Counted from the stretch's first letter, positions 1,450 to 52,116 are shown. The stretch: 64,000 nt of DNA from Clostridiales bacterium (GCA_016281915.1 JAEEJO010000045.1:1-64000), one strand, 5' to 3'. Made by a program: numbers and translations. The notes: generated from the sequence alone by a model not told the origin.

Positions 1450-2448
1450 ATGATAAAAGAAGAACTTCACCTTACAGATAAATGGGATAAAACTTTTCCC
1501 AAAAGCGACAAAACCAATCATTGCAAGGTAACTTTCGCGAACCGCTACGGCATAACGCTTGCCGCCGATATGTATATGCCGAAAGATGCGAGCGGAAAAC
1601 TTCCCGCGATCGCTGTCTGCGGTCCTTTCGGCGCGGTAAAAGAACAGTGCTCCGGATTATATGCCCAGACGATGGCAGAGTGCGGCTTTCTGACCGTTGC
1701 ATTCGATCCTTCGTTTACCGGAGAAAGCGGAGGCAACGTCCGTTATATGGCATCACCGGATATCAATACAGAAGATTTTATGGCGGCTGTCGATTTCCTC
1801 TCGCTCAATGACAAGGTCGATCCCGACAAGATAGGTATTATAGGCATCTGCGGCTGGGGAGGACTTGCTCTCAATACCGCTGCACTCGATACTCGCATAA
1901 AAGCGACGGTAGTGTCAACAATGTATGATATGACTCGGATCAATGCCAAAGGTTATTTTGATTCTGAGGACAGTGAAGACGCACGCTATGCCAAAAGAGC
2001 AGCCATGTGCGCCCAGAGACTTGAAGATATCAGAAGCGGAGAATACAAGCTCGGCGGCGGCGTTGTAGACCCTCTGCCGGAGGATGCGCCGTTTTTTGTT
2101 AAGGATTACTACGATTATTATAAAACGCCGCGCGGATATCACCCGCGTTCGCTTAACTCAAACGGCGGCTGGAACGTTACGGGCTGCGAGTCTTTTATCA
2201 ATCAGCCCATTCTTTGCTACTCAAACGAGATACGCTCTGCAGTCCTTATTATACATGGTGAAAATGCTCATTCGTGCTATATGGGCAAAGACGCTTATGC
2301 AAATATGGTAAAAGACAGCAAATATACGTCGAATAAAGAGCTGATGATAATCCCCGGTGCTGTCCACACAGATCTTTATGACGGCGGAAACGGAAATTAT
2401 ATCCCGTTTGACAAAATAACACGGTTCATGAAGGAAAATATGAAATGA
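1450..2448 (+). CDS. Alpha/beta hydrolase (dienelactone hydrolase-like)
   Basis: This 332-residue cytosolic protein has the alpha/beta-hydrolase layout: an N-terminal strand region, LPAIAVCGPFG near residue 51, an elbow GICGWGG at 132-138, and a C-terminal catalytic-type His at 306 in IPGAVHTDLYDGG. The usual nucleophile Ser in the elbow is absent; Cys134 is the likely nucleophile if active, as in dienelactone hydrolases, although the spacing is unusual. It belongs to a broad family related to YcjY with unclear substrates. It follows luxS by 27 nt and overlaps the next gene by 4 nt (ATGA), so it is translationally coupled to a flavoprotein. The substrate is unknown. Confidence 0.8.
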   Translation: MIKEELHLTDKWDKTFPKSDKTNHCKVTFANRYGITLAADMYMPKDASGKLPAIAVCGPFGAVKEQCSGLYAQTMAECGFLTVAFDPSFTGESGGNVRYMASPDINTEDFMAAVDFLSLNDKVDPDKIGIIGICGWGGLALNTAALDTRIKATVVSTMYDMTRINAKGYFDSEDSEDARYAKRAAMCAQRLEDIRSGEYKLGGGVVDPLPEDAPFFVKDYYDYYKTPRGYHPRSLNSNGGWNVTGCESFINQPILCYSNEIRSAVLIIHGENAHSCYMGKDAYANMVKDSKYTSNKELMIIPGAVHTDLYDGGNGNYIPFDKITRFMKENMK

Positions 2449-3071
2449 GTAAAGTCTTGCTTATCAACGGCAGTCCGCACACCCGCGGCTGCACCGCTGC
2501 CGCTCTTGAGGAAATGATAAAAGTTTTTCATTCAGAGGGCGTTGAAACAGAGCTTGTAAATATAGGAAATAAAGCGATTCGAGGCTGCATATCGTGCGGC
2601 AGCTGCGAAAAATCGGGCAAATGCGTTTTTGATGACGCAGTCAACGAAGTTGCGCCGAAATTTGAGGCGGCGGACGGACTTGTTATAGGCAGCCCAGTAT
2701 ATTACGGCTCTCCTAACGGCACGTTACTGTCTTTTCTTGACAGACTTTTTTACAGCACTTCGTTTTCAAAGCACTTTAAGATCGGCGCGGCTGTCGTTTC
2801 GTGCAGAAGAGGTGGCAATACCGCAAGCTTTGACGTTCTCAACAAGTATTTTACGATCAGCAGCATGCCCGTTGCGTCGTCAACATACTGGAATCAGGTG
2901 CACGGCTTTACCGCTGAGGACGTAAAAAAAGATCTTGAAGGACTTCAGACGATGCGCAATCTTGCGCGCAATATGGCGTTTTTGATCAGGTCTGTTGCGG
3001 ATGCACGTGAAAAATACGGACTTCCCGCACTTGAAAGAGGAAGCTTTACGAGCTTTCCTGACGGAAAATAA
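2445..3071 (+). CDS. Flavodoxin-fold NAD(P)H-dependent FMN reductase / iron-sulfur flavoprotein-like
   Basis: The 208-residue protein starts with VLLINGSPHTRGCT, the FMN phosphate-binding loop of the flavodoxin-like fold. A cysteine cluster follows at residues 48, 51, 54 and 60 (C-x2-C-x2-C-x5-C), as in iron-sulfur flavoproteins and related NADPH-dependent FMN reductases. GSPVYYGSPNG at about 85-95 is the second flavin loop. It probably transfers electrons in the cytosol, but partner and substrate cannot be read from sequence. It overlaps the upstream hydrolase by 4 nt and precedes a flavin reductase-family gene. Confidence 0.8.
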   Translation: MSKVLLINGSPHTRGCTAAALEEMIKVFHSEGVETELVNIGNKAIRGCISCGSCEKSGKCVFDDAVNEVAPKFEAADGLVIGSPVYYGSPNGTLLSFLDRLFYSTSFSKHFKIGAAVVSCRRGGNTASFDVLNKYFTISSMPVASSTYWNQVHGFTAEDVKKDLEGLQTMRNLARNMAFLIRSVADAREKYGLPALERGSFTSFPDGK

Positions 3072-3090
3072 TCTAACGGAGGATATATAA

Positions 3091-3654
3091 ATGAAAAAAC
3101 AGATCAAAACAACCGAAGCGATTTTTCCCATGCCGGTTCTTCTCATATCAACGTTCAACGATGACGGTACCGTAGATGTTATGAACGCCGCATGGGGCAC
3201 GATGCTTGACAGGGATATGGTGGCGCTGAATCTGACCGAAACTCACACCACGGTTAAAAATATCAAGGCTCGCAAAGGCTTTGTTGTCCATATAGCTGAT
3301 GCCAGACACGTTGCCGAGGCAGACTGGTTCGGCATTGTGAGCGGAGGCGACGATCACGATAAATTCAAAAAATCAGGTATGACGTTCGAAAAATCGGATC
3401 TTGTCGATGCTCCCGTTATCAATGAGCTCCCCATTGCAATCGAATGCGAATTTGTAGAGTATCAGAACGGAACCAACGGTATAGGACTGATAGGAAAAGT
3501 TGTCCGTACTTCGGTAGAAGAGGCGAATTTGAAGGACGGCAAGGTCGATATAGACTCTCTTGAAGCGATTGCGTTCGATCCCTATACTCTCGGCTACTAT
3601 AAAGTAGGCGGAAGAGTAGGAAACGCTTTCAAGGACGGACTTAAGCTGAAATAA
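3091..3654 (+). CDS. Flavin reductase family protein (flavoredoxin-like)
   Basis: This 187-residue protein has the split-barrel FMN-binding layout: FPMPVLLISTFNDDGTVDVMNAAW at the N-terminus, an LTETHTTVKNI segment, and FVVHIADARH, all typical of flavoredoxin-like proteins of anaerobes. It probably binds FMN and passes electrons between NAD(P)H or ferredoxin and an unknown acceptor. A GGAGG ribosome site lies before the ATG, 19 nt after the preceding flavoprotein. A hairpin at 3722-3754 follows and probably ends the luxS transcript. Confidence 0.85.
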   Translation: MKKQIKTTEAIFPMPVLLISTFNDDGTVDVMNAAWGTMLDRDMVALNLTETHTTVKNIKARKGFVVHIADARHVAEADWFGIVSGGDDHDKFKKSGMTFEKSDLVDAPVINELPIAIECEFVEYQNGTNGIGLIGKVVRTSVEEANLKDGKVDIDSLEAIAFDPYTLGYYKVGGRVGNAFKDGLKLK

Positions 3655-3721
3655 CATCGCCTGAAAACTTAAAATCAGGCTGTCGTCTGATCTAAACCGA
3701 CAAATACACAACATAATTAAT

Positions 3722-3754
3722 AATAAACGGTTCCGAAATACGGAGCCGTTTATT
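3722..3754 (+). terminator. Terminator of the luxS operon
   Basis: AATAAACGG-T-TCCG (3722-3735) pairs with CGGA-G-CCGTTTATT (3741-3754) around a 5-nt AAATA loop, 14 bp with one G-U pair. The tail is only moderately T-rich. Confidence 0.6.
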
Positions 3755-3782
3755 GTTCTATATCAAAAAAGGAGGCTAGCCG

Positions 3783-3818
3783 ATGAAAAAATCCTCCGAT
3801 TGTGATAAAACAGGATGA
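3783..3818 (+). CDS. Putative 11-residue leader peptide
   Basis: An AGGAGG-like site (GGAGG at 3771-3775) precedes an ATG at 3783 that opens an 11-codon frame, MKKSSDCDKTG, ending at 3818. The frame runs through the first arm of the inverted repeat at 3793-3850. If translated, ribosomes would disturb that hairpin. The frame may also be chance within a terminator of the opposite strand. Confidence 0.25.
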   Translation: MKKSSDCDKTG

Positions 3819-3850
3819 CCTTAAGGTCAGGATAAAATCACAAACGGAGG
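3793..3850. terminator. Long imperfect inverted repeat; likely terminator of the minus-strand metal operon
   Basis: CCTCCG-A-TTGTGAT (3793-3806) is complementary to ATCACAA-A-CGGAGG (3836-3850 region). The centre is the perfect palindrome GACCTTAAGGTC (about 3817-3828). Read on the minus strand, the structure is followed by ATTTTTT, which fits an intrinsic terminator for the HMA gene that ends at 3901. Read on the plus strand, the GGAGG at 3846-3850 is a ribosome site for the micro-ORF at 3859 and is held inside the stem. Confidence 0.5.
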
Positions 3851-3858
3851 ATATATCT

Positions 3859-3945
3859 ATGAAAAAGAAAACATGGATTTATTTTTTCTCTTTTTGCTTT
3901 TCAGCCGAAAAAACCGTGTTTTTTATACTCTTCGGCAGACATTGA
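3859..3945 (+). CDS. Putative 28-residue hydrophobic peptide
   Basis: GGAGG (3846-3850) lies 8 nt before an ATG at 3859 and a 28-codon frame rich in Phe, starting MKKKTWIYFFSFCFS. It overlaps the 3' end of the HMA gene on the other strand (3901 onward). It could be a small membrane peptide, the remnant of a lost gene, or noncoding. Its ribosome site would be sequestered by the hairpin at 3793-3850. Confidence 0.25.
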   Translation: MKKKTWIYFFSFCFSAEKTVFFILFGRH

Positions 3946-4149
3946 AACGAATGTGTAGCCGGTTTCGGCTATCGCTTTGGCAAGTTTTTCATCGTCTGCT
4001 CCGTCTTCTCTTAAAAACGTTGCTTCACCCGTGTTTTTCGATGCTTTGACCTTTTTCGCATCAGGGTATACTTTTCTTATCGTGTCGCAGATATGCGCCT
4101 CGCACATACCGCACATCATTCCGTCGATTTTTACCGTTATTTTTTTCAT
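3901..4149 (-). CDS. Heavy-metal-associated (HMA) domain protein, CopZ-like
   Basis: This 82-residue protein is a single ferredoxin-like HMA domain with the metal motif GMMCGMCEAH (Cys13 and Cys16) after ITVKIDG. Such domains bind Cu(I), Zn(II) or similar ions and pass them to transporters. It is the last gene of a unit with an ABC ATPase and an FtsX-type permease, 9 nt after the permease, not the usual neighbour of a copper P-type ATPase. That placement suggests it either delivers metal to, or senses metal for, the ABC system. A C-terminal extension, SAEEYKKHGFFG, is not part of the core fold. Confidence 0.85.
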   Translation of the reverse strand: MKKITVKIDGMMCGMCEAHICDTIRKVYPDAKKVKASKNTGEATFLREDGADDEKLAKAIAETGYTFVSMSAEEYKKHGFFG

Positions 4150-4158
4150 CTTTTCCTC

Positions 4159-6546
4159 TCATTCTGCGTTTTTCAACGCTTCTACCATATCTATTTTTCT
4201 GTTTTTACGCGCAACTGCAAATCCGACGATCAATGAAACGCCGAAAGTAAGAAGTATCGATACCGCGTATGTCATCACACCGAGCATCATCTTCATTTCA
4301 TATTCCGATGCGAGCGCCGAAATCAGCAGTTGAAGAGTCATTATACCTGCGGGAAGGCCGAACAGAACGCCTATAACCGTCAGCCATATGTTCTGCGAGA
4401 TCAGCAGATGACCGATCTTTCTGCTTCTGAAACCGAGGACCTTCAGCGTTGCAAGTTCACGCGAACGTTCAACGTAGCTCATTATACCGAGATTATAAAG
4501 CACGACGATGCCGAGAATTACTGCGGCTATAACGAGAACGAATACCATGGTATCCATTATCTCAACAAAACTTCCGAAGCTTTCCATCAGCTGACGTTTG
4601 TCCTGCTTGCCCGAAATAATTCCCGAAGACGCTATCTCGTCGGACCGTTTTTGCGTGTATATTGCTGAAACGCTGTATTCAATGCCGAGCTCATCTGCAA
4701 GAGTGTCCATCATGGTTATGCTTTCCATCATTATTGAACGGTTATACCCAATTACCTTTACGCGGTATGTTTCATCGCTGCCGTATGGCGAAAATTCAAT
4801 GGATTCTCCGATTTTTGCCATGTCGGCAAGACGCAGACAGAGGTAAACGCCCTCGTCGCTCAGATCTATGGGCGAATTGCTTTCATCTATAACATCAAGT
4901 CTGCCGTTGTCGTTATGGATGATGTCGAGCGTTGCCGTGTAGCCGTCGATGCTGATGCCCATATAGCTTTCCCAGTCGCCGTCCAGCGATTCAATAAGCT
5001 CCTTCGCGCTGTCTGACGACGTGTTTTCAACAAGGTTGACCTTCGTTGCATAGTGCGATACTCCGTTATCAAAAAGATCGAGAAATCCTGCCATCGTGTC
5101 CCTCATACCGAGTCCGCCGACAAGAAGTATCATACAGCCCACTATGCCAACAAGCGTCATTGCAAAGCGGCTTTTATGACGCATAAGGTCACGGATGTTC
5201 CACTTCGTGGAGAAGCTCATTTTTCGGAACAACGGAAGGTTCTCAAGGAAAGACTTCGTCATTTTTTTCGGCGTATACGGACGGAGTGAGTCTGCCGCAG
5301 TGCCTTTCAACTGCGCACGGACGGAAAGAAAACTGATAAGCGTAAGCAATATGACCGTTCCTATGATAACAGGACAGCAGAATCCCGGCATTGCCGCAGT
5401 CCAATCGGGCATATCGAAATACGTTCCCATCATGCCGTCTTCGCTCATGATCAGCCTGCAGACAAAATAACCGAGAAAAATGCCCGGAACTGTCCCGACG
5501 ATCCCGATGAAAAGACCGTAAAGCGAGTAGTGGATAATGATAGTTCTGTTTTTGAATCCGAGCGCTTTAAGAATGCCGATCTGTGTTTTTTCGTTCGTCG
5601 CGATCCGGTGCATGGTGGTTACCATTGTAAGGATCGCTATTGCAAGAAACAGCACTGGAAGTATCGACCCCATGGTTTTTCCTTCGGAAGCTTCTCCCAT
5701 TGCTTCTTTATAGACAGTATGATCATCTTTCGGGACCACCATGATCGTTTTACCGAGTTTTTCATTTACCTCGTCTTCAAGCGTCGCCTTGTCAAGACCG
5801 GAAATAATGTTGATCTGAGCAAAGACCCTGTCTGTCTCGGAGTTTATCATTTCGTCAGTCACGAGTTCTTTTGTCTGCGCTTTTGCGGTATCATCGGAAA
5901 GCCCCGTTTTTATCATTTCCTCATATACGGTCTGTACCGCTTTTTCTGTAAGTACGCTTCGCAGTTTCGCCGGTGATATATATGCAAAACCGAAATTATT
6001 GAAATCTGGCATGACCTGATTGCTGTCTGCAACGCATATCATATGTTCTCCTGCCTTGATAAGCCCGACGACTTCTCCCTGGACCTCTGTTCCCTGAAAT
6101 TCGAGATACAGAGTATCTCCGATTTCTATTCCGTTAAGCTCGGCAAATTTGTCCGACAGCCATATCCCGTCGCTCTTTTCGTCGTATTCCGCGCCGCTCA
6201 TCAAAGTGAATACTGATACGGTGTAGTTTTCTGAAACGTCTACCGCAAGAGCTTTTTTGCTTTCTCCTTTCAGATCGAGATTAACTGAAAGAAATCTTGA
6301 AGCTGCGTCAACTCCGTTTATCGAAGATATCTTTTCAAGATCTTCTTTCGTGAATCCCGTTTCGGAAAACAAACGGTAGTCGGCATATAAAGTGTTTTCA
6401 AAAAAACGCGACGTATCATATTCTATCGTTTTCCATTCCATATTGAAGCCGAGAAACATTCCTATCCCGAGCGTCATCATGATTATCATTGAAATAAACT
6501 GAGCTTTATAGCTCCATGCGGTGCGAATCAGTTTTCTTAAAAGCAT
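4159..6546 (-). CDS. ABC transporter permease, MacB/FtsX type with two FtsX domains
   Basis: This 795-residue protein has an N-terminal membrane helix (about residues 14-35), an extracytoplasmic domain, three helices at about 290-420, a second extracytoplasmic domain, and a final group of three helices at about 660-785. This is the duplicated FtsX layout. ILKALGFKNRTI and LKVLGFRSRKI are the conserved cytoplasmic coupling segments. I chose the ATG at 6546, which overlaps the ATPase stop (TGATG), over a GTG at 6552. Systems of this type are usually mechanotransmitters or exporters of peptides and lipids rather than ion pumps. Its operator and the HMA gene nevertheless tie it to metal homeostasis. 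Confidence 0.85.
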   Translation of the reverse strand: MLLRKLIRTAWSYKAQFISMIIMMTLGIGMFLGFNMEWKTIEYDTSRFFENTLYADYRLFSETGFTKEDLEKISSINGVDAASRFLSVNLDLKGESKKALAVDVSENYTVSVFTLMSGAEYDEKSDGIWLSDKFAELNGIEIGDTLYLEFQGTEVQGEVVGLIKAGEHMICVADSNQVMPDFNNFGFAYISPAKLRSVLTEKAVQTVYEEMIKTGLSDDTAKAQTKELVTDEMINSETDRVFAQINIISGLDKATLEDEVNEKLGKTIMVVPKDDHTVYKEAMGEASEGKTMGSILPVLFLAIAILTMVTTMHRIATNEKTQIGILKALGFKNRTIIIHYSLYGLFIGIVGTVPGIFLGYFVCRLIMSEDGMMGTYFDMPDWTAAMPGFCCPVIIGTVILLTLISFLSVRAQLKGTAADSLRPYTPKKMTKSFLENLPLFRKMSFSTKWNIRDLMRHKSRFAMTLVGIVGCMILLVGGLGMRDTMAGFLDLFDNGVSHYATKVNLVENTSSDSAKELIESLDGDWESYMGISIDGYTATLDIIHNDNGRLDVIDESNSPIDLSDEGVYLCLRLADMAKIGESIEFSPYGSDETYRVKVIGYNRSIMMESITMMDTLADELGIEYSVSAIYTQKRSDEIASSGIISGKQDKRQLMESFGSFVEIMDTMVFVLVIAAVILGIVVLYNLGIMSYVERSRELATLKVLGFRSRKIGHLLISQNIWLTVIGVLFGLPAGIMTLQLLISALASEYEMKMMLGVMTYAVSILLTFGVSLIVGFAVARKNRKIDMVEALKNAE

Positions 6547-16628: not shown

Positions 16629-18221
16629 ATGCAGAGAAAATACGGCAGAATAATATTATCTCTCGTGATCGCGGTCTTTCTGATCGCAATACTTGCCGCG
16701 TGCAATCAACCTCAGGAAGAACAAACCGGAAATCCCGTAAAGCGCGTAATGCTCAACATTACGGAATACTCCTTCACGTCACCCGACGAGTCTATACGTC
16801 TTTCCGCAGTTGTTCTGCCCGAAGACGCAGACGATAAAACGCTTACCTGGACAAACAGCGATCCCAATGTGGCAAATCTTAACAGTGAATATACCGTGGT
16901 TCCTCTTATAAACGGCGAAACGGTCATCACCGTAACATCTGTTTCAAGCGGACTTACGGCGGAATGCAAGATCACGGTAAATCTTCCCGAGGTCGAACCT
17001 CCCGTTTTAACAACACCCGTAACAGGCGTGATCATTTCGCCCGACGTGCTTGAACTTACCGAGATCGGCGCTTCATCTCAGATAATCGCGGACGTAACTC
17101 CGTTCAGCGCAACGAATCAGAACGTTGTATGGTCAAGCTCCGACCCGTCTGTGGCAACCGTTGACGGAAACGGCGTTGTTACAGCCGTAAAAGAGGGAAC
17201 GTCAGTCGTTACCGTAACTACCGAGGAAGGCGGATTTAACGCAAGCTGCTCAGTTACGGTTAAGCTGCCAAAGCAGGAAACTCCGTCCGAAAATACGACA
17301 GAAAAACCCAACAACTCCGGATCTTCAGACAATTCCGGTAACTCAGGCTCTTCGGGCAATTCGAGTTCATCCGGCAATTCGGGAAGCAGTTCATCCGGCA
17401 ATTCGGGAAGCAGCTCGTCCGGCAATTCCGGCTCGTCAAGCACGTCCGTCAAACTTCCTTCCATTCCCGCAGCACGGACCGACGCCGATCACTTCCTTAT
17501 TTCGGATAATCTTCTTGATTTCAATAAAGTCAATTCAGACGTAAAAGCATGGCTTTACGTTCCCGGCACAAATATGAATTTCCCCGTGGCTCAAACGGAA
17601 GATAACGATTTTTATCTTACAAGGGGCCTTGATAAAAAATCGAAATATACAGGCTCGTGTTATATCGACTTCAGAAACGAGCTGCTTATAGACTCTAATA
17701 CCATCCTTTACGGTCACGCAAAAGGAACCGATATTTTTGACCAGCTTGAAAACGTAACGCAGACAAAAGATTGGTTTTCAAATAAAGACAATATGTATGT
17801 CTGCCTCAACACTCTTGATGAGCTTACGGTATGGCAGGTCTTCGCCTGCTACTATACCGATGCCGACGCGGATTATTATCTCTATACAAACTTCTTTCTT
17901 GACGAACAGAGCGTGCTGAAAAAATATAACGAGCTTGCCGCTACCGATCCGCAAAAAGCGGTGTTCGGTCTGCTTGACCCGAAAGAGATGCACGATTTCA
18001 TGACAGATGACGACGCCTTTGTCGAATTTATGACAGGCTGGAGAACGCGTGCGGTGAAAGACAGATACGGAGACGTCAACAACTACCTCAAGAGCCGCGA
18101 CTATGGCGTAAAGATCGAAGCCGGCGACCGCGTTATCACACTTTCAACCTGCGCCGACTCAAGCGGACCGATACGCTACGTTCTTCTTGCAAAGCTTATC
18201 GCGTCAAAGCCGAGACCTTAG
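16629..18221 (+). CDS. Lipoprotein class B sortase with two Big_2 domains
   Basis: This 530-residue protein starts with a signal peptide and lipobox LAAC (Cys25). Residues about 38-125 and 130-215 are two Big_2 Ig-like domains, with the WSSSDPSVATVD signature in the second. Residues about 220-275 are a Ser/Gly/Asn-rich linker encoded by 24-bp repeats. The rest is a class B sortase domain with His363 in YGHAKGTD, catalytic Cys508 in TLSTC, and a downstream GPIRYVLLAKL strand that should carry the essential Arg. Sortases usually have an N-terminal membrane helix; lipid anchoring and spacer domains are unusual. No substrate with a sorting signal is seen nearby. A second class B sortase follows. 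Confidence 0.88.
   Translation: MQRKYGRIILSLVIAVFLIAILAACNQPQEEQTGNPVKRVMLNITEYSFTSPDESIRLSAVVLPEDADDKTLTWTNSDPNVANLNSEYTVVPLINGETVITVTSVSSGLTAECKITVNLPEVEPPVLTTPVTGVIISPDVLELTEIGASSQIIADVTPFSATNQNVVWSSSDPSVATVDGNGVVTAVKEGTSVVTVTTEEGGFNASCSVTVKLPKQETPSENTTEKPNNSGSSDNSGNSGSSGNSSSSGNSGSSSSGNSGSSSSGNSGSSSTSVKLPSIPAARTDADHFLISDNLLDFNKVNSDVKAWLYVPGTNMNFPVAQTEDNDFYLTRGLDKKSKYTGSCYIDFRNELLIDSNTILYGHAKGTDIFDQLENVTQTKDWFSNKDNMYVCLNTLDELTVWQVFACYYTDADADYYLYTNFFLDEQSVLKKYNELAATDPQKAVFGLLDPKEMHDFMTDDDAFVEFMTGWRTRAVKDRYGDVNNYLKSRDYGVKIEAGDRVITLSTCADSSGPIRYVLLAKLIASKPRP
17366..17436 (+). repeat. 24-bp tandem repeat in the sortase linker
   Basis: CCGGCAATTC recurs at 17371, 17395 and 17419, a 24-bp period, encoding SSSGNSGS-type octapeptides. 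Degenerate copies lie just before. Copy number may vary between strains and alter linker length. Confidence 0.75.
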
Positions 18222-43902: not shown

Positions 43903-43950
43903 AAAAGACTGTATTAAAATACTGAAAGTATTTCGATACAGTCTTTTCAT
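43903..43950. terminator. Bidirectional terminator
   Basis: AAAAGACTGTAT (43903-43914) pairs with ATACAGTCTTTT (43936-43947), with further pairing inside. It separates convergent genes ending at 43886 and 44026. Confidence 0.85.
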
Positions 43951-44025: not shown

Positions 44026-47000
44026 TCAGCTCTGCTTTCTGAAATATTCCACAATGCCCTGAACGATGGCATCTGCGGCTTTTTCCATATTATCGCTGTC
44101 AGTAAACCATTCATAGTCGTAGATATTGCTGAGAAATGCCGTTTCAAACAGGATAGACGGGAAGTCGGGGAACATTGAAACCTTGTAGTAGCCTATCTTA
44201 TATGAGTTTTTCTTGAGTCCCGTTGCTTCCGTGAATTCGTCAAGCATTACTTTTGAAAGAAGCTTTGAACTTGAATAGGAATAGTATGTTACCGTTCCGC
44301 TCGTATTCAGCGGATTTGCGGTTTCACCGACGTAATTGAAGTGAATTGATACGTTAATATCCGGCTTCCATGCGCGGTATTCGAGAATAAGCGGATCAAG
44401 GTCTTTTTCAAGCTCTCTGTGATGCGTAAGATAAACTGTTGCACCCAGATTTATAAGCCTTGATTCAACAAGCCTTGAAAGCTCATAGTTCCAGTCAGCC
44501 TCAGTCCATTTTATTCTGCCCCACGGACCGAGCGCGCCTCCGTTGAGGCTGTGACCGGGGTCAAGAGAAATTCTTATACCGTAAAGAGGATAATTATTGC
44601 TGTCGTAAAGCGAAGCCGGATTTTTGAATGCAATTATCAGAGCGCCGTTTTCAAAATAAGCCGTGTAACCGAAAATATAAAGCTCTTTTTTGTATGTGAG
44701 CGTTATTCTGGCAGTCGTTGAATCAACTCTCGATACCGAAACACCGCTGAAGAGCGGGTTTTCGGGAAGTGTGAATTCGGCGGGAAGCGCAGAAAGGTTA
44801 TAAAGCGTGATATCCGCCTTTGTGTCGCTCATCCATATGGTATTCATGGTCTTTGCATCGGTCGGAATCACGATATTTGTATATTTTCCGTCCGAGCTCT
44901 GCGTAACGGTGATCCTGCCTGTTGCGGAATACGGGATCGACATGTTTTCCACACGCTTTACGTTGTCCGTGACCGTGTAGTATCCACTGCCAAGCAGAAC
45001 GTTGCCGTTATATTTCGAAACGACCGTATCGAGGGCGCCGATCGTTGCGTAAAGATATTCTTCTCCGGTAACTTTGAGGTCGGGTTTCAGCTGCGCAGGG
45101 AAATCGCCTGTAAACTCAACGACATAATCTTCCGGATTGTTTATTACTTCAATCGTATTGTTTCCGCGATAGCGGACAGTGTCGTAACCGTTTTTCTCGA
45201 TAACGAATTCGGGCGTTCCAAGCACGGCGTTTCCCTGTATATCGGGCAGTACGAACGAGCCTTCATACCACGCGCGCCTGAACGATCCGTCAGTTGAATC
45301 CTTATCGGTCGTGGAAAGATCTACGGTGTAGTCACCGATAATTACATATACCTTTGACCCGGCGGTAGCAGTGCATGAGAAATTGATCTTAGTGCCCGAT
45401 TTTTCTGCTCTGTCGTATTTCGGGGCACACGAGCCTGAAACAAATCCGAATGAGGACATCGTTTTCGGCTCTGAATATGCGCCGCTTTTTTTGATGATAT
45501 AATCTACGGTTTCACCCTTGTGCTCTATTTTATAATGATTTTCGCCTGTTTTGGGAACGGAAACCATATGCGTGAAATATCCCTTGGGTGAGCGCGTAGT
45601 CACTTCTTCTCCGTCTATGTAAAGCGGATAATTCGGATCGGAAACACCTATAATGAACGTTTTTGAGGTTGAGTTTTCAACAGAAAGGGAGGAATATGAC
45701 AAAACAAGCTTGTCTGTTGCCGCTTCCACGCCGGTCGTTCCGCTCTTGAAATATGTTTTTGAAGTGTCTCGGATTCCGGCAACGTTTTTCGCAACGTCCT
45801 TGTATGAAAACATAACTACGCCTGCAACGCTGTCTTTTGTCTTAAGATAGTTGAGCTGATTCTGTATTTCGGACGGTGACTTGTATGCCGCAACGGATGC
45901 TCCCTTATAGGCTGCAATGCCGATATACAGCTTTACCTTCGTTTTTGATACAAGATCGTTCCACCAGTCTGTTATCGGTTTGAACGGAGCTGTTGAATGA
46001 TCGATCTCCCAGTAAATCTGAGGACAGATATAGTCTATCCATTCGTTTACTACCCATTTTCTCGTATCTGCATAAACCTGATAATACGATTCCGATGAGC
46101 TCTTGATATTCGTGCCCAGACTGTTGTTTGCTTTGAGCGCCCACACTCCGCTCGGGCTTATTCCGAATGCGACGGACTGCTTTGCCGCCTTTACCGCGGC
46201 TGCTGTCTGCGAGACAAGAGCGTCGTTGTTCGACCTGCGCCAATCTGCAAGCGACTGTCCTTCGGCTTTGTATTTTTCATACTCTGCGCTGTCGGCAAAT
46301 TTCGAAGCATCGTTATAAGGATAGAAATAGTCGTCAAAATGTATGCCGTCTACGTTGTAGTTGTTTACTATTTCAAGAATTCCGTCAATTATCAGCTTGC
46401 GCACTTCGGGAAGACCGGGATTATAGTATGCCGCTCCGTCGCTGTGTTTTACTACCCACTCCGGGTGATTTCTCGCGGGATTGGACTCTGCAAGGTCTGA
46501 GATATTGTGACCTCCGTTTCCGCTTTGCGTAATCCTGTACGGGTTTACCCATGCGTGAAGCTCTATGCCTTTTGAATGAGCTGCTGTAATAAAATATTCA
46601 AGGCAGTCAATCGGGAGCGGATCTCCCTGTTTTTCAACAACGCAGTCTGAAGAGGGGAAAAGCGATGAGTAATAGATAGCGTCGCTCTTCGGGCGGACCT
46701 GAAGGAATATGGCGTTGTAACCCCAGTCATATGCATTGTTTACTATGGTATCTATCTCCGCCTTCAGCTCTGCTGCGGAAAGCCCCTTTTTAGACGGAAA
46801 ATCAATGTTTGAAACAGTTGCCACCCAAAGTCCTTTCAGACCGTCCGATGCCGCGCCTATGGTGATGTCTCCGGTAATATTCGGTTCAGGCTCGGGCTGT
46901 TTTTCAACGGTGGCGGAAAAATCTGCCGTAAAGCCGCCGTCCTCTGTTTTTACCGTGATTACTGCGGTGCCTTCCGCAAGTGCTGTTATCCTGCCGATAT

Positions 47001-48291
47001 TATCAACAGAGATGACCGAGGGTGCGGAGGAAGTGAACGTGACGTTTTTATTCGCCGCAGAAGAAGGAAGGACAGACCATGAAAGCGTAAGCGAGTCTCC
47101 TATCTTTGCAAACGTATAGCTGTTTGATGCGAAAGAAACTCCTGAAACGGGCACGTTTTGCGGAATATCAACTTTTACCTGCAATTCGGCGGTGATTCCG
47201 CTCGAAGAAACAGCCGTTATTTTTGCGGTTCCGTTTGCTACTGCCGTTATTTTGCCGTTTTGGTCGACCGTTGCCACATTTGAGTCGCTCGATACGAATA
47301 CGATCGATTTTTCGGTGGTGTTTTTCGGAGAAAGCGAATATGAAACGGTGAACGTTTCGCCCTTTTCGTCAAAATCTACGGAAGATTGAGCCAAGGTGAT
47401 CTTTTCAAGAGGGATGACCGCATCAACCTTGAACTTGCATATCGCCTGCTTTTTGTGGTTGTCGGCTACGGCGTATACGGTCGCTTCACCGTTGCCTACG
47501 GGCGTGATTATACCTGTCCCGCCGTCAACGGTAATTGTAACTACGGAACGGTCGGAAGTTATCCATTCAAGACCGCGTTCCGTTGTGTTTTCGGGCTCCC
47601 AGACGGGGGTGAGGCGGATATTCTCGTCAAGAGTGGTGAACGTATACTCGGAAATATCAAAGTTTACGTCCGTCATGGGCACGTTTACGTCAACGTTGAC
47701 GTTTACTGCGCAATAAGCCGTAAAATCGCCCTTGACGGTCCTTGCGGTAATGATTGCAGAACCGTTGGAGACCGAAATTACGGTTCCGTTGCTGTCAACG
47801 GTCGCTACGGAAGGGTTCGAAGACGACCATAAAACTTCAGGTTCTGTCGCATTTGCAGGGAGGACCTCGCAGTTCAGCATATATATTTCACCGAAATAGG
47901 TGAATTCGTGTTCGCTGCCGGAAAGAGAAATACCCGTAACGTCAACGTATGTCGTTACGGTTATTTTGCAGTCTGCAAACGCAGTCCCGTCTTCCGAGCG
48001 CGCATAGATATGCGCTTCGCCGTCGTTGACCGCGGTTACAATTCCGTATTGAGTTACTGCCGCTACCTTTTCATCCGATGATGACCACAGAAGCTTTCTG
48101 TTCGTTGCATCGTCGGGCTTAATTACCGCGGCAAGCTGAAAGGTTTGTCCTGTTTCGGAAAACATATGTTCGGTAGTTAAAAACGAAACGGATGTTACCG
48201 GAACGGATTTTTCAAAAAGAGAGCACGAAGCCACCGTGAGAATTACAAGCAGCGCCGTCAAAAAAAGCAGGGTCAGACTTTTTTTGTTCAT
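44026..48291 (-). CDS. Lipoprotein with Big_2 repeats, GHL10/DigH-like glycosidase and Amidase_3 domains
   Basis: The 1421-residue protein starts with a lipobox ASC (Cys23). Residues about 30-465 are five Big_2-like Ig domains. Residues about 480-800 are a GHL10 (DUF187) glycosidase: GLWVATVSNIDFP, FLQVRPKSDAIY, HAWVNPYR and GIHFDDYFYP. A 400-residue middle part of beta-rich repeats follows. Residues about 1240-1421 are an N-acetylmuramoyl-L-alanine amidase with zinc ligands His1247 (DPGHS), Glu1264, His1317 (SIHFN) and catalytic Glu1383 (FETAFLSN). The two enzymes could act in sequence on peptidoglycan: the amidase strips peptides and the DigH-like domain cuts the bare glycan. It is the last gene of the HIT-CofE-like run. 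Confidence 0.88.
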   Translation of the reverse strand: MNKKSLTLLFLTALLVILTVASCSLFEKSVPVTSVSFLTTEHMFSETGQTFQLAAVIKPDDATNRKLLWSSSDEKVAAVTQYGIVTAVNDGEAHIYARSEDGTAFADCKITVTTYVDVTGISLSGSEHEFTYFGEIYMLNCEVLPANATEPEVLWSSSNPSVATVDSNGTVISVSNGSAIITARTVKGDFTAYCAVNVNVDVNVPMTDVNFDISEYTFTTLDENIRLTPVWEPENTTERGLEWITSDRSVVTITVDGGTGIITPVGNGEATVYAVADNHKKQAICKFKVDAVIPLEKITLAQSSVDFDEKGETFTVSYSLSPKNTTEKSIVFVSSDSNVATVDQNGKITAVANGTAKITAVSSSGITAELQVKVDIPQNVPVSGVSFASNSYTFAKIGDSLTLSWSVLPSSAANKNVTFTSSAPSVISVDNIGRITALAEGTAVITVKTEDGGFTADFSATVEKQPEPEPNITGDITIGAASDGLKGLWVATVSNIDFPSKKGLSAAELKAEIDTIVNNAYDWGYNAIFLQVRPKSDAIYYSSLFPSSDCVVEKQGDPLPIDCLEYFITAAHSKGIELHAWVNPYRITQSGNGGHNISDLAESNPARNHPEWVVKHSDGAAYYNPGLPEVRKLIIDGILEIVNNYNVDGIHFDDYFYPYNDASKFADSAEYEKYKAEGQSLADWRRSNNDALVSQTAAAVKAAKQSVAFGISPSGVWALKANNSLGTNIKSSSESYYQVYADTRKWVVNEWIDYICPQIYWEIDHSTAPFKPITDWWNDLVSKTKVKLYIGIAAYKGASVAAYKSPSEIQNQLNYLKTKDSVAGVVMFSYKDVAKNVAGIRDTSKTYFKSGTTGVEAATDKLVLSYSSLSVENSTSKTFIIGVSDPNYPLYIDGEEVTTRSPKGYFTHMVSVPKTGENHYKIEHKGETVDYIIKKSGAYSEPKTMSSFGFVSGSCAPKYDRAEKSGTKINFSCTATAGSKVYVIIGDYTVDLSTTDKDSTDGSFRRAWYEGSFVLPDIQGNAVLGTPEFVIEKNGYDTVRYRGNNTIEVINNPEDYVVEFTGDFPAQLKPDLKVTGEEYLYATIGALDTVVSKYNGNVLLGSGYYTVTDNVKRVENMSIPYSATGRITVTQSSDGKYTNIVIPTDAKTMNTIWMSDTKADITLYNLSALPAEFTLPENPLFSGVSVSRVDSTTARITLTYKKELYIFGYTAYFENGALIIAFKNPASLYDSNNYPLYGIRISLDPGHSLNGGALGPWGRIKWTEADWNYELSRLVESRLINLGATVYLTHHRELEKDLDPLILEYRAWKPDINVSIHFNYVGETANPLNTSGTVTYYSYSSSKLLSKVMLDEFTEATGLKKNSYKIGYYKVSMFPDFPSILFETAFLSNIYDYEWFTDSDNMEKAADAIVQGIVEYFRKQS

Positions 48292-48323: not shown

Positions 48324-49067
48324 TCAGTTTTTCTTTCTTATAAGTATTATCGGTGTGCACTGGTCGTCCTGTCCGGCAGGGTTGTCTCTTACGATATCTT
48401 CAAGAACGGGTACGGCGATATCGAGAGCGTCACATTTGCCGAGAAGCTTAACGGAAATATCGCATGCATCCACTATCATGCATTTGATTCCGAGCTTTTC
48501 GTATATCTCATTGCATACGCCTGACGGATTCTCCGGGTTGAGTATGCCGTAGTTGACGTATTCCTTATATGAAATATCATAATCGATAAGTCCGTCTATG
48601 CCGTCAACTTCGTGACCGCAGACCTTATAAAAAACGCCTTTGATCCCGAACAGCTTCGTAACTGCCGAGCAGAACGTTGCCAGAAGAACTCTCGGCAGAC
48701 CGCAGAGCATAATTATGAGCTGCATTTTATGCGGTGTTCCGGCGCCGGGTCCTGCGGGTGTGACGTGAACGAATTTGCAAAGCAGCTTCGCCCAGAATCC
48801 GGGATGGATATCCTTGCGGTATACGATACGTTTCTGACACAGTGCGATTATCTTTTCGCTTATGGAAATAAAATCTCCTTCTTTTATATGCGGAAGGGCA
48901 TATTCCTTTATTACTTCGATATAATCGTCACCGATATTTACAAAGCGCGTTTTTATCGCATAACGCTCATATTCGGTATCCCCGACTTTTCTTACTATCT
49001 GTTTGTTTTCGTTCGGTCTGAGCTGTGATTCGGTGATCTCTGTATTGATGTCGGAATTATCTGTCAT
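48324..49067 (-). CDS. CofE-like (F420-0:gamma-glutamyl ligase domain) protein
   Basis: The 247-residue protein resembles the coenzyme F420-0:gamma-glutamyl ligase domain: ALPHIKEGDFISISEKIIALCQ, HVTPAGPGAGTPHKMQLII and DACDISVKLLG. No other F420 genes are in the window, and most Clostridia do not make F420, so its true substrate is unknown. It could be a glutamyl ligase for another molecule. It begins 1 nt after the HIT gene stop. Confidence 0.7.
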   Translation of the reverse strand: MTDNSDINTEITESQLRPNENKQIVRKVGDTEYERYAIKTRFVNIGDDYIEVIKEYALPHIKEGDFISISEKIIALCQKRIVYRKDIHPGFWAKLLCKFVHVTPAGPGAGTPHKMQLIIMLCGLPRVLLATFCSAVTKLFGIKGVFYKVCGHEVDGIDGLIDYDISYKEYVNYGILNPENPSGVCNEIYEKLGIKCMIVDACDISVKLLGKCDALDIAVPVLEDIVRDNPAGQDDQCTPIILIRKKN

Positions 49068-49068
49068 T

Positions 49069-49419
49069 TCAGACGATCCTTTCGGGTAGTTTTTCTCCGC
49101 CTAAAAGGTGGAAGTGTATATGCTTTACGGACTGTGCGCCGTCTTCGCCGCAGTTGTTTATTATTCTGTATCCGTTTTCAAGTCCGAGAGAACGTGCGGT
49201 TTTCTTTATTGCTATAAATATATCGGCTATTATCCCGGCGTTTTCCTCTGTAATATCGTCTGCGGAAGAGAGGATATGGTCTTTCGGTATAAAAACGACG
49301 TGGATGGGCGCCTGGGGCGCGATATCTTTAAAAGCAACAACATTGTCGTCCTCATAAACCTTTGAAGAGGGGATCTCTCCCGCGGCGATTTTGCAGAAAA
49401 TGCAGTCGTCTTTTTTCAT
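49069..49419 (-). CDS. HIT-family protein
   Basis: The 116-residue protein has the N-terminal CIFCKI segment, PQAPIHVVFIPKDH and the histidine triad as HIHFHLL. HIT hydrolases act on nucleotide phosphoramidates or Ap4A-like dinucleotides in the cytosol. A longer frame opens at 49452, but the ATG at 49419 has GGAAGGAA in front and starts at the conserved part. It is preceded by a hairpin after alaS and coupled to the CofE-like gene. Confidence 0.92.
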   Translation of the reverse strand: MKKDDCIFCKIAAGEIPSSKVYEDDNVVAFKDIAPQAPIHVVFIPKDHILSSADDITEENAGIIADIFIAIKKTARSLGLENGYRIINNCGEDGAQSVKHIHFHLLGGEKLPERIV

Positions 49420-49453
49420 TTCAGTTCCTTCCTTTCGGTTTCGGGCTGTCATT

Positions 49454-49497: not shown

Positions 49498-52116
49498 TTA
49501 TTTTAACGAACCAATCGCTTCGCAAAGCGCTTCTTCGGTTTTTGAAGCGTCTTTACCGCCTGCGGTAGCGCTGTCGGGTCTTCCGCCGCCTCCTCCTCCG
49601 CAGATGAGCGCGGCTTTCTTTACGATATTGCCTGCGTGTGCTCCGTTTTTAACGGCGTTTTTACCGCATGCGCATGCAAAGCTTACTTTGCCGCTTTCAC
49701 TGTCTTTCGAAGCAAGGATTATAACGGCGTTTTCGTCTTTGTCCTTTACCTTGTCGCACATTTCACGAAGGATATCTGCTTTTGCGTCGATGATACCCGA
49801 AACGAGTGTGAATTTATCTGTTTTTTCAGCTTTTGCAAGAAGTTCGTCGAGCGAAGCGAGGGCGATAGCTGAGTTGAGTTCCGCGATCTGTTTTTCCGCA
49901 GCCTTAAGCTCTGCAGCAGCCTGCTCTGCCTTGGCGGCAATATCGTTCACGTTGCATTTGAATACCTGAGCGGTCTTGGCGATCAGAGCGTTTTTCTCGT
50001 CTATATAGTCAAGAACGTTTGCGCCTGTTATGGCTTCTATCCTTCTTACGCCCGCAGATATGCCCTGTTCGGCAAGGATCTTGAAGCAGCCGATCATTCC
50101 GGTATTGTCAACGTGCGTTCCGCCGCAAAGCTCCGTGGAAACATCACCCATTTTGACAACACGGACTTTTTCACCGTATTTCTCGCCGAAAAGCGCGATC
50201 GCTCCGGTCTTTTTCGCTTCTTCAAGGGACATTTCGGTTTTAGTAACCGGAATAGCTTCTAAGATATGAGCGTTGACTGTTTTTTCCACTTTGCTTATCT
50301 GTTCGGGAGTCATCGCTTCGAAATGCGAAAAGTCAAAACGGGCGCGTTTTGCATCTACGTATGAACCTGCCTGGGCCACGTGAGTGCCGAGGACTTCTCT
50401 CAGCGCGGACTGCAGCAGATGAACTGAGCTGTGATTTCTCATGATGCTCTCTCTGTTTTCTCTGTCTACCTCAGCCTGAACACAGTCTCCTACCGTCAGC
50501 TCTCCCTCTTCGATGTGACCGTAGTGAACGAATATTCCGTTGACGCGCTTAACATCGTTTATCTTTATTACCGCGTCATCTTTTGTGAGATATCCTTTGT
50601 CGCCCACCTGTCCGCCGCTTTCGCCGTAGAACGGTGTTTTGTCAAGAACTATCTGCACTTCCGCACCTGTAAACGCTTCGGATACGCGTTCACTGTTTAT
50701 CACAAGAGCAAGAACTTCGGCGTCGCCTTCAAGCGCGTCATAACCGGTAAACACTGTTTTTGCTACGCCTTCAAGCGTTTCGTCGCCTTTCCATGCCGTG
50801 TCGTTTCCTCTTGCGGCTCTCGCCTTCTCCTTCTGTTCTTTCATAAGGGCGTTATAACCGTCTTCGTCAACGGTCATGCCTTTTTCTTCAAGGATCTCAA
50901 GAGTTAGATCAAGCGGGAAACCGAAAGTATCGTAAAGTCTGAAAGCGTCTTCTCCGGAAAGAACGGTCTTTCCTTCGGCGGTGAGCTTATCGGTAAGGTC
51001 AGAAAGAAGAACGAGACCTCTGTCGATGGTCTGGTTAAACGAGTTTTCTTCGTTTTCGATTACTTTCTTTATATAATCTGCTTTTTCTACAAGATCGGGA
51101 TACGCGTTGCCGCTTTCACGTATTACAACGTCTACAAGCTCACAGAGGAAATGGCTGTCTTTTATGCCGAGAAGCTTTCCGTGACGCGCTGCCCTGCGAA
51201 GAAGTCTGCGAAGAACGTATCCTCTGCCTTCGTTTGATGGCAGAACGCCGTCGCAAACCATAAACGTTGTGCTTCTTATGTGGTCGGTAACTACTCTCAG
51301 CGAAACGTCCGCTTCGGGAGATTCGCCGTATTTTTTAGCCGACATTTCAGAAAGACGTTCGGTGATGTTTTTGATCGTGTCAACGTCAAAAAGCGAGTCA
51401 ACGCCCTGCATGATGCATGCGAGACGCTCAAGTCCCATACCGGTATCTATGTTCTTTTTCTCAAGAAGGGAATAGTTGCCGTTACCGTCGTTGTTGAACT
51501 GTGTGAAGACGAGATTCCAGAACTCAACGTATCTGTCGCAGTCGCAGCCAACCTTACAGTCCGGCTTGCCGCATCCTTTTTCGGGACCGCGGTCAAAATA
51601 TATCTCGCTGCAGGGTCCGCAGGGACCGGAGCCGTGTTCCCAGAAATTGTCTTCTTTTCCCAGACGGGAAACGTGAGAAGGATCAACGCCTACTTCTTTT
51701 GTCCATATATCGTAAGCCTCATCGTCATCCTGATATACGGTGACGTAAAGCTTTTCTTCGGGCAGTTTCATTACCTGTGTAACAAATTCCCATGCCCAAG
51801 CCGTCGCTTCATGCTTGAAATAGTCTCCGAACGAGAAGTTGCCGAGCATTTCAAAAAACGTTCCGTGGCGCGACGTCTTTCCTACGCGCTCTATATCGGG
51901 CGTTCTTATGCATTTCTGGCAGGTCGTTACACGTTTTCTCGGCGGGGTCTGCTGTCCGGTGAAAAACGGTTTTAAGGGCGTCATGCCCGCATTGATGAGA
52001 AGAATGCTTTTGTCGTTCTGAGGTACGAGCGGAAAAGATTCCATTCTCAGATGTCCTTTGGACTCAAAAAAACTGAGATATTTTTCACGTATCTCATTAA
52101 GACCCATGAATTCCAT
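49498..52116 (-). CDS. alaS: Alanyl-tRNA synthetase
   Basis: The 872-residue class II synthetase has the N-terminal catalytic core (FESKGH, INAGMTPLKPFF, GPCGPCSEIYFD), the editing domain with HSSVHLL and CGGTHVDNTG zinc ligands, and the C-terminal coiled part and DHHA1-like GGGGGGRPD. It charges tRNA-Ala and clears mischarged serine and glycine. Only 43 nt separate it from ispE, with no T-box visible. It is the last gene of the lrp-aminotransferase-ispE run. Confidence 0.97.
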   Translation of the reverse strand: MEFMGLNEIREKYLSFFESKGHLRMESFPLVPQNDKSILLINAGMTPLKPFFTGQQTPPRKRVTTCQKCIRTPDIERVGKTSRHGTFFEMLGNFSFGDYFKHEATAWAWEFVTQVMKLPEEKLYVTVYQDDDEAYDIWTKEVGVDPSHVSRLGKEDNFWEHGSGPCGPCSEIYFDRGPEKGCGKPDCKVGCDCDRYVEFWNLVFTQFNNDGNGNYSLLEKKNIDTGMGLERLACIMQGVDSLFDVDTIKNITERLSEMSAKKYGESPEADVSLRVVTDHIRSTTFMVCDGVLPSNEGRGYVLRRLLRRAARHGKLLGIKDSHFLCELVDVVIRESGNAYPDLVEKADYIKKVIENEENSFNQTIDRGLVLLSDLTDKLTAEGKTVLSGEDAFRLYDTFGFPLDLTLEILEEKGMTVDEDGYNALMKEQKEKARAARGNDTAWKGDETLEGVAKTVFTGYDALEGDAEVLALVINSERVSEAFTGAEVQIVLDKTPFYGESGGQVGDKGYLTKDDAVIKINDVKRVNGIFVHYGHIEEGELTVGDCVQAEVDRENRESIMRNHSSVHLLQSALREVLGTHVAQAGSYVDAKRARFDFSHFEAMTPEQISKVEKTVNAHILEAIPVTKTEMSLEEAKKTGAIALFGEKYGEKVRVVKMGDVSTELCGGTHVDNTGMIGCFKILAEQGISAGVRRIEAITGANVLDYIDEKNALIAKTAQVFKCNVNDIAAKAEQAAAELKAAEKQIAELNSAIALASLDELLAKAEKTDKFTLVSGIIDAKADILREMCDKVKDKDENAVIILASKDSESGKVSFACACGKNAVKNGAHAGNIVKKAALICGGGGGGRPDSATAGGKDASKTEEALCEAIGSLK

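Follow-up and report, generated by a model that had tools for sequence, protein, structure and literature searches.

A predicted lipoprotein joining GHL10 and Amidase_3 domains behind a Big_2 stalk in a Clostridiales bacterium

Gene organization and domain architecture

The window analyzed here is a 64,000-nucleotide stretch of DNA from a Clostridiales bacterium (GCA_016281915.1 JAEEJO010000045.1:1-64000). On its minus strand, positions 44026-48291 form a single unbroken open reading frame for a lipoprotein of 1421 residues with the order Big_2 (five copies), GHL10, linker and Amidase_3. The signal peptide (48223-48291) carries the lipobox V-A-S-C, as read from the sequence, with the lipobox cysteine at residue 23. 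Behind it lie a stalk of five Big_2 domains (residues 32-470, 46882-48198; five Pfam stretches, E 7.8e-50), a GHL10 TIM-barrel domain (residues 485-850, 45742-46839; Pfam match over residues 485-796, E 5.8e-65), a β-rich linker (residues 851-1237, 44581-45741) and an Amidase_3 domain (residues 1241-1414, 44050-44571; E 1.2e-24), all on the minus strand. Each Pfam assignment exceeds its curated cut-off, which bears out the sequence-only reading that one chain carries an amidase and a GHL10 domain on a Big_2 stalk. The same frame recurs at full length in many independent genomes, which excludes an assembly artefact.

An F420_ligase-like gene (48324-49067, minus strand) lies directly upstream at a distance of 32 bp and is preceded by HIT (49069-49452) and alaS (49498-52116), with gaps of 1 and 45 bp. 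The alaS-HIT order is kept across the family, and the F420_ligase-like gene is kept in part of it, with 74-94% identity; CofE-type models match this gene partially. The four genes are probably co-transcribed and form a conserved neighbourhood. On the other side, between convergent gene ends, a twelve-base inverted repeat with T/A tails (AAAAGACTGTAT...ATACAGTCTTTT, 43903-43947) was read by eye and is a probable two-way terminator shared by both genes. Its stem is poor in G+C, and a terminator scan did not pick it up.

Active sites of the amidase and GHL10 domains

The amidase domain scores 87.8 bits against the Amidase_3 profile PF01520 (cut-off 27), its solved-structure match is CwlV (1jwq), and Foldseek matches it to CwlV, LytH and AmiC, with which it shares the fold and the zinc site. 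Unlike the present protein, the entries matched for these enzymes show no fusion to GHL10, and those for CwlV and LytH consist of the catalytic domain on its own. The residues previously named as zinc ligands, His1247 (44551-44553), Glu1264 (44500-44502) and His1317 (44341-44343), and the catalytic residue Glu1383 (44143-44145), all with codons on the minus strand, are present at those positions, and all four are invariant in 30 fused proteins drawn from many families.

The GHL10 profile PF02638 gives 219.9 bits (cut-off 27.9), and the best solved relative of the domain is Cwp19 of C. difficile (5oq2), which is found both by phmmer (E 1.6e-83) and by a Foldseek search with the AlphaFold2 model of residues 475-1421 (pLDDT 81.5; E 1.2e-34, TM 0.89 on the target). 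Thirteen residues were named as likely to form the site of Cwp19 (W36, Q77, W127, R132, D195, D196, Y197, S250, Q295, Y297, G328, F367 and S368), with Asp196 as the main catalytic candidate and Gly328 in place of the usual second Glu (PMC5765458). All thirteen are identical here (W489, Q531, W581, R586, D653, D654, Y655, S712, Q758, Y760, G791, F828 and S829), and the codons of D653-D654, the equivalents of Asp195-Asp196 and thus the putative catalytic site, lie at 46330-46335 on the minus strand. As far as the sequence tells, the catalytic acids are therefore not missing, which is the defect that had been named as one that would refute the proposal. Across the same 30 fused proteins, the D-D-Y motif, the Arg of NPYR, Q758, Y760 and G791 are invariant, and certain other GHL10 site positions differ in single sequences.

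The domain had been likened to DigH (YddW) of E. coli. The likeness holds at the site, where the MG1655 sequence of DigH is identical at 12 of the 13 positions, but in overall sequence the domain is less close to DigH (34% identity) than to Cwp19 (41% over 352 aligned residues). By sequence, the nearest characterized GHL10 enzyme is Cwp19 rather than DigH, and these two are closer to each other (48%) than either is to the window protein. The site residues themselves do not distinguish a Cwp19-like from a DigH-like enzyme. Cwp19 (GHL10-CWB2 x3) shares the barrel but has no amidase, acts alone and is anchored by CWB2 rather than by lipid and Big_2; DigH is, like the window protein, a GHL10 lipoprotein, but it is Gram-negative and has neither amidase nor stalk. 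A second GHL10 match in the same genome (L002) was set aside because it resembles an alpha-galactosidase-type protein.

The substrate range of GHL10 is poorly known. DogH, a GHL10 member of Deinococcus, is reported to work on starch (PMC9967864), and the Cwp19 gene sits in a surface-polysaccharide neighbourhood (PMC5765458). Both observations would fit a GHL10 domain that targets a secondary wall polysaccharide instead of the peptidoglycan strand, with the amidase merely opening access. This is improbable, given that Cwp19 and DigH, the two GHL10 relatives with a known wall substrate, both cut peptidoglycan glycan.

Linker, stalk and anchor

The two enzymes are separated by approximately 390 residues that are predicted to form tandem Ig-like β modules (AlphaFold2, pLDDT 83). 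No Pfam domain matched this linker, and a structure search against the PDB returned generic tandem Ig-fold matches and no specific relative. An AMIN-like reading of residues 1170-1237, made by eye, found no confirmation.

The Big_2 domains had been proposed to serve as a spacer through the wall. In agreement with this, the barrel begins at a nearly constant distance from the start Met (approximately 479-491 residues in 14 proteins), which suggests that the five domains represent a kept length. Most fused relatives, however, have no stalk: beyond the family of the window, the fused frame is mostly approximately 960-1100 residues long without Big_2, and in 15 examined proteins of this kind the barrel lies behind a signal peptide or transmembrane segment. 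The stalk is a local addition and not part of the conserved GHL10-linker-Amidase_3 core. Within the family, the start is of the lipobox type in genera g1 and g3, and a transmembrane segment precedes the stalk in g7. Elsewhere in the window (16662-17270, plus strand), the start of another protein, in a 555-residue frame, resembles the lipoprotein leader and Big_2 stalk, with 37% identity over residues 10-201.

In two relatives (G001 and G014), a type I dockerin is found at the same locus where the stalk would be, with alaS-HIT upstream in L044 and HIT-F420ligase in L042; both genomes contain cohesins and other dockerins. The replacement suggests a secreted or complex-bound enzyme in these two relatives. 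Together with the origin of many named relatives, which are metagenome-assembled genomes from ruminant or deer gut, it raises the question of whether the enzyme serves scavenging or competition, with the foreign peptidoglycan of dead or rival gut bacteria, and not the cell's own wall, as its substrate. For the window protein this is unlikely: it is lipid-anchored at its own membrane, its genome gave no dockerin or cohesin match, and in most fused relatives the barrel comes soon after an N-terminal transmembrane segment or signal peptide.

The G014 locus (L042) also contains a gene for a solo GHL10 lipoprotein (1087-2289) in tandem with the dockerin-GHL10-Amidase_3 gene (2279-4882), and the two frames overlap; in the barrel tree, the solo protein groups with both dockerin fusions. 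Another genome of the family (G003) has 29 dockerin matches, yet the GHL10-amidase core finds nothing in it at E 1e-20.

Distribution and conservation of the fusion

Identities of the full-length orthologues in the family lie between 41% and 86%. A profile of the GHL10-linker-amidase core (A1), counted when a match covered both enzymes, was used to look for conserved fusions across Clostridia, as the sequence-only reading had advised, and they were found. Within the order, at least 64 of 295 genomes have a profile match that runs through the entire core. Ten more have partial profile matches and a fusion confirmed by Pfam; in one of these (L118) the amidase match reaches the first part of the domain only. 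Spanning matches are present in 18 of 291 sampled genomes of the class (the window's own not counted), in several other families, and a phylum-wide sample of 299 added one further case (L111). The spread across order and class indicates that the architecture is old.

Against the three nearest orthologues, dN/dS is 0.035-0.048 for GHL10, 0.021-0.037 for the amidase and 0.074-0.105 for the stalk, values that are rough because dS is near saturation. A single-clade origin of the fused GHL10 domains is not recovered by the barrel tree, which gives 3-4 changes. The co-linear linker that the fused proteins all have in common points to a single old fusion followed by losses, with independent fusions of GHL10 and Amidase_3 as the less probable alternative.

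A protein of 1164 residues in genome G178 (L124:1523-5014) contains Glucodextran_B, Amidase_3 and Big_2 and adjoins, downstream, an apparently intact GHL10 gene. Its N-terminal half matches the GHL10-fusion profile from position 161 only and has no Pfam GHL10 match, and it may be a degenerate barrel.

A second pairing of GHL10 with an amidase

GHL10 is also joined to an amidase of another type. The arrangement GHL10-SLH-Amidase_2, with SLH as the anchor, occurs as a single frame in three genomes (G029, G021 and G523; L119:35-2560, L121:369-2933 and L130:136-2547), and the L119 and L121 proteins are 50% identical. The Amidase_2 and Amidase_3 folds are unrelated, and here the two predicted activities have been combined independently, by convergence. 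Among approximately 25 GHL10 proteins scanned, a sample biased to long frames, an amidase was the sole second catalytic domain met; the other partner domains were SLH, Cu_amine_oxidN1, dockerin and Big_2.

Convergent pairing with two unrelated amidase folds favours cooperation of both activities. GHL10 is also found without an amidase, alone with SLH or Cu_amine_oxidN1 domains, which indicates that an amidase on the same chain is dispensable for it.

Relation to sporulation

The activity pair predicted here is also that of SpoIIP and SpoIID in engulfment, where the amidase strips peptides and the lytic transglycosylase then cuts the denuded strand (PMC6221140). That system differs in consisting of two proteins of unrelated families and in being sporulation-specific, and both proteins are missing from the genome of the window. 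No SpoIIP, SpoIID or Spo0A_C match was found in this genome (G000, completeness 95.75%), which could point to a sporulation enzyme that stands in for SpoIIP and SpoIID. Such a role is very improbable. SpoIIP is retained in 49 of the 64 fusion genomes and absent from 15, and a genome without Spo0A probably does not sporulate. SpoIIP is also absent from the nearest relatives of the window, where the fusion is retained as well, so the fusion gene has outlasted the loss of SpoIIP and probably has no role in sporulation. A vegetative role in wall turnover or cell separation is most likely.

Most genomes of the order (255 of 295) have SpoIIP, and so do several members of the window's own genus; the lack of SpoIIP, SpoIID and Spo0A_C in G000 is apparently a recent loss of sporulation within one genus.

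Proposed mechanism

The reading that we prefer, at a probability of roughly 0.65, is a membrane-tethered bifunctional autolysin with which vegetative cells remodel their own wall; we infer both activities, their order, the use of the stalk as a spacer and the biological role. Tethered by the lipid anchor and by a five-domain Big_2 stalk that spans, as a very rough estimate, 20 nm, both catalytic domains would reach into the wall. Stem peptides would be taken off MurNAc by the zinc amidase at the C-terminus, and the GHL10 barrel would cut the glycan, probably at MurNAc-GlcNAc by lytic-transglycosylase chemistry like that of Cwp19. The amidase would most likely act first or alongside, such that one molecule both removes the cross-links and cuts the strand thus exposed.

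A narrower form of this mechanism is a strict sequence in which a DigH-like GHL10 domain cuts a strand only after the amidase has stripped it. There are precedents for such an order: the glucosaminidase GlcA of Atl needs prior action of the amidase AmiA (PMC7679415), SpoIID needs SpoIIP (PMC6221140), and DigH degrades denuded glycans (PMC12288456). That GHL10 is found with amidases of two unrelated folds also argues for joint use of the activities. However, Cwp19, the nearest characterized GHL10, is a lytic transglycosylase that cuts the peptide-bearing wall of M. lysodeikticus and yields peptide-bearing anhydro-muropeptides (PMC6016235). Its activity on such a wall means that a strict amidase-first order is not required and that prior amidase action is perhaps unnecessary, and the site residues do not separate the two types. 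The strict form is thus a tentative proposal whose chances we place somewhat below even.

A still stronger proposal is a class-wide, so far unrecognized bifunctional wall hydrolase of Clostridia, with obligate coupling, channelling of the amidase product to GHL10, a pairing invented at least twice, and a membrane-to-enzyme distance set by the fixed five-domain stalk. Taken as a whole, it is doubtful.

Comparison with known autolysins and significance

Atl, the major staphylococcal autolysin, combines catalytic domains of an Amidase_2 type and a glucosaminidase family, which are separated by processing. The window protein resembles Atl in that an amidase and a predicted glycan-cutting domain, both assigned by Pfam, are encoded as one precursor protein; in Atl, the glycosidase acts after the amidase (PMC7679415). 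It differs in its families, which are Amidase_3 and GHL10, and in its stalk, which Atl lacks. Bifunctional amidase/glycosidase autolysins are thus already known, and the combination of GHL10 with Amidase_3 is not described in the literature searched, a partial coverage of the field in which a single paper, an S-layer review, names both domains. The proposal of a self-contained peptidoglycan degradation machine stands in part: two predicted catalytic domains with intact active sites share one chain under strong constraint, but the stalk falls outside the conserved part, and Atl and SpoIIP/SpoIID are precedents.

If the domains act in series, the protein would be a natural one-chain form of the amidase-then-glycosidase step that other families carry out in staphylococci and in sporulating bacteria. 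That GHL10 has been paired repeatedly, with amidases of two unrelated folds, gives a clue that enzymes of this type benefit from strands already stripped, and it bears on their substrate preference. The gut Clostridia in which the GHL10-Amidase_3 fusion is widespread are largely uncultured, and their wall turnover is almost unstudied.
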